The notes beneath the pieces were generated by a model. It saw nothing but the letters and a program-made list of their open reading frames with translations, did no database searches and was not told the DNA's origin. Shown here piece after piece: positions 32,781 to 38,130 of a DNA stretch of 38,132 bases. A program made the position numbers and the translations under genes. The stretch lies in the NCBI GenBank assembly GCA_011043415.1, contig DQXH01000059.1, positions 1-38,132 on the forward strand, written 5' to 3'. Source of the stretch: Thermoprotei archaeon. GTDB taxonomy: Archaea; Thermoproteota; Nitrososphaeria; Geothermarchaeales; JDFR-13. Each line of letters opens with the position of its first letter. Within the stretch, counting starts at the first letter, position 1.

Positions 32781-34952
32781 ATGGAACTGAATTACGTTAA
32801 GCTGAGAGTTAGAGACTCTTACCCTAGAGATATAGATAGGGGTATAGTCCGTATACATAGAGAGATAATGGATAAACTAGGTATTAGGGAGAGGTCTGCA
32901 GTCCTTATTGAAAAGAAGGGTAAGGCTGTAGCATGGGTTGCACCCCTATCCCGTGAAGAACCTATCGATATTATTAGGATGGATGACGACACTAGACGGA
33001 ATTTAGGAGCAAATATAAATGATTATGTAATGGTTAGGCCTATCACCCTAGCTCCGGCAAAGAAGGTGGTGCTAGTACCATATGAAAAGATCGAGAATAT
33101 AGATCGGAATTTTGAGAGGACTATACAGAATAGACTAATTAATAGACCTATTGTAAAGGGAAATATGGTATCGATAAAGTTATTTGGATCAATATTATAT
33201 TTGAGGGTAAAGAAGACATCGCCCGACTCCCCCGTTTATATCTCAGACAATACCCGAATTATAATTGCAACAGATTTATCAAGTCAACTTGATGAGACTG
33301 AAGTCCGTTATGAAGATATCGGTGGACTTGATAAGGAGATAGAGAAGATTAGAGAGATGGTTGAGTTACCTTTAAAATACCCTAAATTATTTAAGCATCT
33401 AGGTATAGAACCTCCTAAAGGCGTTCTTCTACATGGACCTCCAGGATGTGGAAAGACGTTACTGGCTAAAGCTGTAGCTAATGAGTCTGAAGCAAGCTTC
33501 TTTGCGATTAATGGACCTGAAATAACAAGTAAATATTATGGTGAGTCTGAAGCTAAATTACGTGAGATATTTAGGAAGGCCGAGGAAAACGCCCCATCCA
33601 TAATATTCATAGATGAATTAGATTCAATAGCGCCTAGGAGAGAGGAGGTTTCCGGTGAGGCTGAGAAGAGGGTGGTGGCTCAGCTACTTACATTAATGGA
33701 TGGATTAAAGAGTCGTGGTCAAGTTATCGTAATTGGTGCGACAAATAGGATAGATGCGATAGACCCTGCATTGAGGAGGCCTGGTAGATTCGATAGAGAG
33801 ATTGAGATTAGGATACCTGATGAAAAGGGGAGGTATGAAATCTTTAAAATACACACGAGGGGAATGCCACTAGCTGATGATGTCGACTTACATAAACTTG
33901 CAAGTATAACCCACGGATATACTGGGGCTGATATTCAAGCAGTATGTAGAGAAGCAGCTATGAAGGCATTGAGGAGATATCTCCCAATGATTGAGAAGTA
34001 TGAGGAAATTGGAGATATTCCGAATGAAGTATTGTCACAGATCGTGGTTACAATGAAAGACTTCATGGACGCATATAGGGAGATTGTACCCACTGCCATG
34101 AGAGAAGTTGATATATCAATACCGAGAGTCACCTGGGATGATATCGGAGGATTAGAAGATGTAAAGAGAATTTTAATGGAGAATATTGAATGGCCCCTTA
34201 AAAAACCGGATAAATTTAAGAAATTTGGAATAGATCCTCCGAAGGGAATATTGCTATACGGTCCACCAGGTACTGGAAAGACCTTGTTAGCACAGGCAAT
34301 AGCGAATGAGACTAATATGAATTTTATTGTAGTTAAGGGTCCCGAGCTACTGAGTAAATGGGTGGGTGAATCTGAGAAGGGAATAAGAAGAGTCTTTAAA
34401 CGCGCCCGTGAAGTAGCCCCATCCATAATATTCTTTGATGAGATAGAGGCTTTAGTACCTGAAAGAGGTATGGATCTAAGTTCAGGTGTGACAAACAGGG
34501 TTATCAGCCAGTTTCTAACTTAATTCGATGGTATAACGAGGCTTGAGGATGTCATCGTAATTGGTGCGACAAATAGGCCTGACATGGTTGATAAAGCGTT
34601 GCTAAGACCAGGCCGTATGGACTTGCTTATATATGTGCCGCCTCCTGATGTGAATGCTCGATACAGTATATTAAAGATTCACACACGGAATATTCCTCTC
34701 GATGATACCGTCGATTTAAAGAAGTTAGCTGAATTAACTGAATATTATACTGGAGCCGATTTAAAGGCTTTAGTTAGGGAAGCGGCGATGAATGCCTTAC
34801 GAATTGATAGAGAAGCCGTTTCATTTGAGGACTTCCTTATGGCGATGGAGAAGGTGAAACCTTCGTTAAATGACGCGATAATAGAATGGTATGAGAATTA
34901 TGGTAAGAAGATGCAGGTGAGGAAGATAGGGCTACCTGCGGCATTTGCATGA
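32781..34952 (+). pseudogene. Cdc48/VCP-type AAA+ ATPase (N, D1, D2), interrupted by in-frame TAA at 34521-34523
   Basis: D1 [17 protein letters not shown] and [15 protein letters not shown]2 [17 protein letters not shown] and [15 protein letters not shown]; ...[31 protein letters not shown] continues in the same frame to 34952. Confidence 0.92.
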
Positions 34953-36308: not shown

Positions 36309-36395
36309 GCGGCCGTGGTGTAGCCTGGAAGCACGCGGGCCTGCCAATATGTAGCAGAACGCCCGAGATCCCGGGTTCAAATCCCGGCGGCCGCA
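36309..36395 (+). tRNA. tRNA-Gly (anticodon GCC) with a 13-nt intron at 37/38
   Basis: GCGGCCG/CGGCCGC acceptor; anticodon stem CGGGC/GCCCG; loop CTGCCA(C); T arm CCGGG-TTCAAAT-CCCGG. Confidence 0.93.
36347..36359 (+). other. tRNA-Gly intron ATATGTAGCAGAA
   Basis: BHB: central helix CTGC(32-35)/GCAG with 3-nt bulges CA|A and AA|C. Confidence 0.85.
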
Positions 36396-36548: not shown

Positions 36549-37007
36549 TTAAATTAGTGTATCAAACTCCTTAGGAATTATAAAGATGTATCTATCTATA
36601 CATTCCCTTACAAACCCTATAGGATATATATCTTCATGTAGTCTTACAAGAAGGATCTTTATATCGTGGCTGCCACGGCTTTCTAATTCACCTCCCTTCG
36701 GTATAAAACCTTTCTTCAAAAATCTGATAAATTCGCTGTAGTCTACAATAACAAAATTTGTTTTTGCTTTACGCCCAACTAATTTTGCGAATTGTATCGT
36801 CGCTCTCCCCCTTAAATCCACTATATTCAACCCGATTGAATTAATTAGATTCGCACCTAACTTACTTAGAGTATTAAATAAATAATTGAGGTTGTCGGTA
36901 TCGATATAATAGTATTTAGATCCTACTTTAAAGAATTTACCCTTGATTTTAGATTTCTTTAACCCATATAGCTTGATAATTTCATCGATCATAGACATTC
37001 TCCTCAA
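36549..37007 (-). CDS. Hypothetical protein with a PUA-like C-terminus (Nip7-like?), coupled to an RNA methyltransferase gene
   Basis: FVIVDYSEFIRFLKKG and KGGELESRGSHDIKILLVRLHEDIYPIGFVRE resemble PUA-type ends; ATGA overlap with the upstream gene. Confidence 0.5.
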   Translation of the reverse strand: MRRMSMIDEIIKLYGLKKSKIKGKFFKVGSKYYYIDTDNLNYLFNTLSKLGANLINSIGLNIVDLRGRATIQFAKLVGRKAKTNFVIVDYSEFIRFLKKGFIPKGGELESRGSHDIKILLVRLHEDIYPIGFVRECIDRYIFIIPKEFDTLI

Positions 37008-37945
37008 ACCTTTTTAAACACTGCAATATATAGTAGACCTATATTTCCACTATATTGCTTGTAATTTAAATCAGGTAGTATTTTAACTGTATTAGATATT
37101 GAAGAATCGTATTTTTTATTATTCCATTCAGTAACTCCCTTATAGTATTTAGCTGGAATATTTTTAGGCTTCAACACCTTTAAACCTAATTTTATACCGT
37201 ACTCGGCTACTTCTTCACACTCCTCTATAGTCAGTGTGCATGTCGAGTACACTAGTATTCCATCAACTGATAATACTTCATACATCCTCTTTAAAATACT
37301 CCTTTGAATCCTTACGTATTTGTTTATATTCCTGAGATTCTTCAGTACATCGTCGGGATTCTTGTAGAATTGGTCGATGGAGGTGCATGGGGCGTCGAAT
37401 ATTATAAGCTTAATATCATCTATTAGGGGGAAATCCTCACCCATATAACTTGTGACTATAACGTTATCGAGCCCGAGCCTATTGATATTTGAGGTCAGCC
37501 TACTTAACCTCCTTTTATATGGGTCATTCGCGATTATCAGCGGTTTATCCGGGTATAAGTAGTTGGATATTAGAAAGGTTTTTCCTCCCGGTGCTGCCGA
37601 TATATCCAGTATGATGCCATTGACCCTATCCAAGTTTATTAGAATAGGATAGAGGGAATTTACATAGTTTGTTATATAGTATAGACCCATATGATGGAAT
37701 AGATGGGAACCGATGTTATATCTTGTCATACATGCATCTTGCCGGCCATAGGATATACATTTTAAATCTGGATAAGATTCTTTGAGTATATTTGTAATTA
37801 AATCACGGTTAGTTATTAGACGCTTATTTAATATAGCTGACTTCAGAGGCCTTTCACTAAGTACCTCCGCGAGATAATATGGATCATCAATATATTGATA
37901 TCCTTTAATCATTTCCGCAAGTGCTTCAACCCGGTTTCGCATCAA
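37004..37945 (-). CDS. NOL1/NOP2/Sun family RNA (cytosine-5) methyltransferase
   Basis: ILDISAAPGGKTFLISNYL, FDAPCTSIDQFYKNPDDV, LVYSTCTLTIEECEEVAEY. Confidence 0.9.
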   Translation of the reverse strand: MMRNRVEALAEMIKGYQYIDDPYYLAEVLSERPLKSAILNKRLITNRDLITNILKESYPDLKCISYGRQDACMTRYNIGSHLFHHMGLYYITNYVNSLYPILINLDRVNGIILDISAAPGGKTFLISNYLYPDKPLIIANDPYKRRLSRLTSNINRLGLDNVIVTSYMGEDFPLIDDIKLIIFDAPCTSIDQFYKNPDDVLKNLRNINKYVRIQRSILKRMYEVLSVDGILVYSTCTLTIEECEEVAEYGIKLGLKVLKPKNIPAKYYKGVTEWNNKKYDSSISNTVKILPDLNYKQYSGNIGLLYIAVFKKV

Positions 37946-37998: not shown

Positions 37999-38130
37999 GG
38001 GGCCGTGGCGCAGCCAGGTAGCGCGGCGGGCTCCAGACTATATTAAGACGGGTATGATGACCTCTGGGATGATTGGAGTCTGGAGCTTTGGGATACCCGT
38101 CGGTCGTGGGTTCAAATCCCACCGGCCCCA
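37999..38130 (+). tRNA. tRNA-Trp (anticodon CCA) with a long intron in the anticodon loop
   Basis: GGGGCCG/CGGCCCC acceptor, GCGC D stem, GCGGG/CCCGT anticodon stem, GTGGG-TTCAAAT-CCCAC T arm; about 58 nt inserted after CTCCAG. Confidence 0.9.
38037..38094 (+). other. tRNA-Trp intron, about 58 nt, with a box-C-like TGATGA
   Basis: Extra sequence between CTCCAG and ACCCGT; the exact boundary is ambiguous by 1 nt because of a repeated A. Confidence 0.75.

Follow-up and report, generated by a model that had tools for sequence, protein, structure and literature searches.

A probable box C/D-type methylation guide lacking canonical terminal boxes in the tRNA-Trp intron of a Thermoprotei archaeon

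Introduction

The closest described relatives of the RNA studied here are the guides in euryarchaeal tRNA-Trp introns (Pyrococcus sR50, Haloferax), which occupy the same gene and intron position and share with it guides to nt 34 and nt 39, a D'/C' motif and the N+5 rule. Their guide duplexes reportedly span both exon-intron junctions, as they do here, an observation attributed to Clouet d'Orval in 2001. Box C/D RNPs have 12-nt spacers, and Yang, Lin and Ye are said to have found in 2016 that the guide duplex is limited to about 10 nt. Excerpts of PMC7994747 and PMC4090602 cite Clouet d'Orval 2001, Bortolin 2003 and Singh 2004 on the euryarchaeal intron guide and state that the Haloferax tRNA-Trp intron guides Cm34 and Um39; the N+5 rule of box C/D RNPs is given in an excerpt of PMC7089733. 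Compared with this type, the intron described here, which lies in a stretch of 38,132 nt (the window, meaning the whole stretch analysed), has no canonical terminal boxes C and D, its D' box reads ATGA, and nt 39 is C rather than U. It is also shorter, with 58 nt versus 103 nt in Haloferax according to an excerpt of PMC7714728.

Standard archaeal box C/D sRNAs share with the window's RNA a kink-turn with sheared GA pairs, the 10-nt guide window, the 12-nt spacing and N+5, but the latter has one kink-turn instead of two and lies inside a tRNA precursor. According to excerpts of PMC8413462, archaeal box C/D RNPs reportedly require two symmetric motif pairs, and eukaryotic box C/D snoRNAs with non-functional C'/D' likewise have one functional kink-turn; those snoRNAs keep the terminal motif and lose the internal one, the reverse of the window. 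The tRNA-Met intron of N. equitans also holds a C/D-type RNA with a mutated box, but the tRNA is a different one, and the excerpts of PMC3491384 report no such conserved two-guide layout. The literature covered, in part as excerpts, describes the tRNA-Trp intron guide generally or for Euryarchaeota, and for Sulfolobus it reports Cm34 and a circular intron. Within it we found no description of a phylum-wide variant lacking the terminal boxes; the primary papers of 2001-2003 lie outside this coverage, and priority is uncertain.

Results

The gene of interest, located at the end of the window, carries an intron inserted after G37 of the anticodon loop CTCCAG(A):

37999-38130, + strand: tRNA-Trp(CCA) gene with intron (Rfam RF00005, 55 bits)
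38037-38094, + strand: intron of 58 nt, spliced at 37/38 through a bulge-helix-bulge (BHB; from exon alignment and parsing)

ARAGORN, run on the window, did not call the tRNA-Trp gene, and no Rfam family matches the intron itself. Our model R1 gives the gene 130.7 bits (E 3e-25); the window's tRNA-Trp is among the 12 sequences on which R1 was trained. Genes for fibrillarin, Nop5 and the splicing endonuclease were all found in the host's draft genome (about 1.24 Mb, 84.67% complete).

Elsewhere in the window, a CDC48-like AAA ATPase reading frame is apparently split into two ORFs (32781-34523 and 34584-34952), which suggests a frameshift or an assembly error near 34523-34584. An intron-containing tRNA at 36309-36395 (Rfam, 55.9 bits; not called by ARAGORN) is probably a tRNA-Gly(GCC) whose intron measures about 15 nt. 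The divergent neighbor at 37004-37945 (- strand) looks by eye like an RNA cytosine methyltransferase of the NOL1/NOP2/Sun type.

A scan of named genomes yielded 86 stretches, and a covariance model was run against the order to which the window belongs and against 250 genomes from the same phylum. The resulting set comprised 121 distinct introns, of which 67, the window's included, are non-redundant at <85% identity. The first scan demanded parts of helix a (defined below) and of C' and is biased towards introns having those, while intron nt 2 onward, the entire nt-39 guide and D' were left unspecified; the structure of the covariance model contained helix a and also leans towards introns with it. 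Loci L120-L149 were excluded as noise from a class-wide pattern search. In the parser that located D' and C', a Watson-Crick D'1-C'5 pair earned a small bonus and stem length a larger one, which mildly favors both; D'2-C'4 covariation earned none. P values from shuffling are optimistic, since relatedness among the introns remains in the controls.

In the alignment, the relatives show a recurring layout of guide, D' (NNGA), short stem-loop, C' (GATGANN), a second guide ending in GGAGC or similar, and 3' splice site. This variant extends to relatives of Nitrosopumilus, one Sulfolobales genome and Methanomethylicia, and apparently also to the Asgard-labelled contigs L085 and L106. Genome G067, of the window's class, has the same tRNA-Trp intron sequence as named Nitrosopumilus contigs, and on this ground we assign the window to Nitrososphaeria (phylum Thermoproteota). 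Introns of thaumarchaeal type were also seen in contigs labelled Deltaproteobacteria (L041, QMLA01000148.1), Marinimicrobia (L069, BPEH01000011.1) and Woesearchaeota (L083, QMQQ01000037.1), which are probably mis-binned. In many relatives, among them L009-L011, L014, L015, L035 and L038, the anticodon stem of tRNA-Trp seems to carry a second intron; L007 has one in the 3' exon.

The window's intron contains two strands complementary to the exons around it, forming helices a and b:

38030-38039, + strand: target strand of helix a, G31-G37 and intron nt 1-3 (C34 = 38033)
38077-38086, + strand: guide to C34 (guide positions 11 to 2), placed by the 12-nt spacing from C'
38047-38055, + strand: guide to nt 39, the D' guide GACGGGTAT (positions 10 to 2)
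38093-38101, + strand: target strand of helix b, last two intron nt and nt 38-44 (C39 = 38096)

Helix a, for which a preliminary description had given 8 bp (38031-38038 with 38078-38085), is real and in fact comprises 10 exact bp; helix b has the 9 exact bp claimed for it. Of 20,000 dinucleotide-preserving shuffles of the window's intron, six produced helix a with 10 bp or more, six produced helix b with 9 bp or more, and none produced both. Each duplex crosses one splice junction, the D' guide the 3' junction and the guide downstream of C' the 5' junction, and because each takes in intron bases of its target, the substrate would be the unspliced precursor.

The register of both guides was examined across the relatives, with guide bases numbered from the D or D' side. 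In the window, nt 39 faces the fifth base before D'; the D' guide, thought in the preliminary description to be missing, is GACGGGTAT. At least 7 pairs at an offset of exactly 5 from D' occur in 34 introns (offset 6 in one), and the nt-39 guide is thus kept in 34/67; a C34 guide of at least 7 bp is present in 64/67, a count inflated by the search bias. Positions 2-11 of the nt-39 guide are paired in 76-100% of cases, position 1 in 18% and position 12 in 24%. For the C34 guide, positions 2-11 are paired in 70-100%, position 1 has no Watson-Crick pair at all, and position 12 (intron nt 4) pairs less often than in shuffled sequences (25% versus 42%, P 0.001). In 59/64 introns, 12 nt separate C' from the expected box D, as in the canonical locus L020. 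This spacing and the pairing profile give C34 as the target, not C32 as first proposed. Both window guides share the duplex length of about 10 nt and the N+5 register of standard archaeal box C/D sRNAs, and N+5, the 10-nt duplex and the 12-nt spacing together place the targets at C34 and C39. The comparison with relatives that had been recommended as a check bore out covariation: helix a covaries at intron nt 1-3, its pair 10 (intron nt 2) occurring as AT, GC, TA and CG, and compensated guide:target changes were seen.

The minimum-free-energy fold of the precursor, computed for RNA alone with no proteins, favors helix a over the anticodon stem and makes it the main hairpin, which is consistent with guide pairing ahead of splicing. 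As anticipated, there is competition between the guide helices and both the BHB and the anticodon stem. The a-b-a'-b' order of the strands, earlier taken to mean a pseudoknot or alternative folds, follows from two guides directed at two exons. An intron whose pseudoknotted or bistable fold regulates splicing, without any guiding of methylation, would account for interlocking helices, a weak BHB and a naive fold that favors a guide helix, but is hardly credible: half of the relatives retain a single helix, either one or the other, so that no pseudoknot is conserved, and the registers match the box C/D rule exactly. The central BHB helix, which in the canonical form has 4 bp between two 3-nt bulges, does have 3/4 pairs in the window, as reported. 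Three pairs, earlier considered weak, are common: 27 of the 67 introns have three and 39 have four.

Between the two guides lies an intact internal motif, the D'/C' kink-turn of the euryarchaeal-type intron guide:

38057-38060, + strand: box D' variant ATGA, the last four bases of TGATGA (from the alignment; NNGA in relatives)
38061-38067, + strand: kink-turn stem CC/GG with TCT loop (stem covaries in relatives)
38068-38074, + strand: box C', GATGATT (D'1-C'5 and D'2-C'4 covariation)

TGATGA (38055-38060) is present as described but is not a box C. Aligning GGGTGAT/CTGA/CC with GGGTATG/ATGA/CC resolves it into the last two guide bases followed by D'; relatives without TGATGA, which had been named beforehand as speaking against the box C reading, exist, and both complementarities persist in many. 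In the window, A1 of ATGA faces U5 of GATGATT, an A-U pair instead of C-G. Among the 67 introns, D'1-C'5 is CG in 29, AT in 7, TA in 5 and GC in 1, and D'2-C'4 is UU in 32, CG in 9, AT in 7, TA in 6 and GC in 2, with 24 of the 35 non-UU combinations being Watson-Crick. The first pair of the kink-turn stem is CG in 55, UA in 6 and GC in 2. For each of these three positions, none of 20,000 shuffles scored as high. The kink-turn covariation is still significant at 75% clustering; at 65% (11 sequences), several tests hold, D'2-C'4 being significant and D'1-C'5 not. To produce several pair types at one position in distant lineages takes repeated changes.

The picture at the intron ends is different, and the expected box D coincides with the splice-site structure:

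38088-38091, + strand: expected box D position, reads TTGG (from the 12-nt C'-to-D spacing)
38089-38092, + strand: 3' strand of the BHB, TGGG, pairing with 38031-38034 (3/4) and overlapping the expected box D

Terminal box D is absent from 38088-38091 in the window, and no box C (RUGAUGA) was found upstream of the D' guide by the same script that found both boxes in L020. An exact CTGA at the expected D position occurs in only 1/64 introns (L020), and a box C matching in at least 6/7 positions upstream of the first guide in only 3/64, the best again in L020. Canonical terminal boxes C and D are lacking in 63/64 introns, the window's included. L020 itself sits on a short draft-genome contig and could be foreign to that genome. 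GGGA is indeed found at 38090-38093, where box D had been suspected, but the 12-nt spacing puts D at TTGG; the broader proposal, in which the RNA has diverged from the box C/D guide of tRNA-Trp introns and one terminal box has degenerated, agrees with this reading.

We also considered a weak D box of the form NNGA at N+5 and rejected it: offset 5 was seen in 19/64 introns, yet offset 7 in 18. NNGA near the D position probably reflects the G/A-rich sequence of the BHB and not a kept box. The expected box D overlaps the 3' strand of the BHB in 43/64 introns, an overlap which suggests that splice-site sequence may have taken over box D as the introns shortened.

With just D'/C' intact and box D gone, the D' half alone could be active, so that nt 39 is methylated while the C34-complementary strand is structural (a hairpin) or masks the anticodon loop and thereby slows splicing. 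In line with this explanation, the predicted fold has helix a as its main hairpin, and helix a competes with the BHB strand for C32-C35. We nevertheless regard it as unlikely. More introns retain the C34 guide than the nt-39 guide (64 versus 34 of 67, the first scan being biased to the C34 guide), and the C34 guide respects the 2-11 limits and the 12-nt C' spacing, which only the measuring rule of the RNP needs; a hairpin stem would have no cause to avoid pairing at position 12.

Relatives have dropped one or the other guide, half of them the nt-39 guide, and neither is thus indispensable. In genera g2, g4 and g5 of the window's family, the C34 guide is gone while the nt-39 guide remains, and changes at the 3' end of the intron are compensated (e.g., L015 versus the window). 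The reverse loss, with the nt-39 guide gone and the C34 guide retained, is found in Nitrosopumilaceae and Methanomethylicia. As the kink-turn is retained in all introns, whichever guide was lost, it serves either guide. In L035, L036, L046 and other Nitrosopumilaceae, the D' guide AACTAAGCTAAA before CTGA is conserved but has lost its match to nt 39, and its target may be another one.

Repeated independent losses of either guide, the window's own family included, and weak D' variants would also fit a decaying relic, that is, a descendant of a full box C/D guide whose function fades lineage by lineage and whose complementarity is a leftover. This is very unlikely, as compensatory changes persist phylum-wide at the kink-turn and in the guide:target pairs, the window's own D' A1 being matched by U5 of C', whereas relaxed evolution predicts mostly unpaired changes.

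Discussion

The self-guiding tRNA-Trp intron is a known kind of RNA, of which the window holds a diverged example. The window's intron is very probably homologous to the box C/D tRNA-Trp intron guide; as terminal boxes were searched for and not found, it is not classed as a canonical member. We propose that it acts as a box C/D-type guide that directs 2'-O-methylation to C34 and C39 of the precursor containing it, a reading to which we assign a probability of about 80%. The missing canonical boxes C and D count against it, as do the guide losses among relatives.

In the proposed mechanism, L7Ae, Nop5 and fibrillarin would assemble on the single intact kink-turn formed by ATGA (38057-38060) and GATGATT (38068-38074). 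The D' guide would pair over the 3' splice junction and bring nt 39 to N+5, and the guide 3' of C' would pair over the 5' splice junction and bring C34 to N+5 of the vanished box D. Both duplexes would form on the unspliced precursor, either in cis or from another precursor or an excised intron; methylation of C34 and C39 would follow as the predicted step. The duplexes would presumably have to come apart first, so that the BHB and the anticodon stem can form for splicing. In the half without box D, measurement from C', assistance from a cryptic end motif or a contribution from a dimer might account for the choice of C34. Only tentatively, and with more doubt than confidence, do we suggest that Thermoproteota and a few Asgard-labelled contigs share a dual guide on one kink-turn in which the guide lacking box D would still methylate C34, its register coming from the 12-nt distance to C' and not from box D; within this same tentative reading, a cryptic end motif together with the splice-site helix is the alternative to the C' distance.

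In favor of the proposal, Cm34 was measured in tRNA-Trp of S. acidocaldarius (excerpt of PMC7668247), and according to an excerpt of PMC12558985 a circular tRNA-Trp intron was identified in every organism reanalysed, Sulfolobus included. Against the proposal, the methylations predicted at C32 and C39 of P. furiosus tRNA-Trp went undetected according to the same excerpt of PMC7668247, and Haloferax is viable without its tRNA-Trp intron (excerpt of PMC4090602).

The guide RNA described here is natural, covarying and spread over a phylum. With one motif pair dropped and the exact register kept beside the missing box, it would allow the rule by which the enzyme measures its target to be tested directly.
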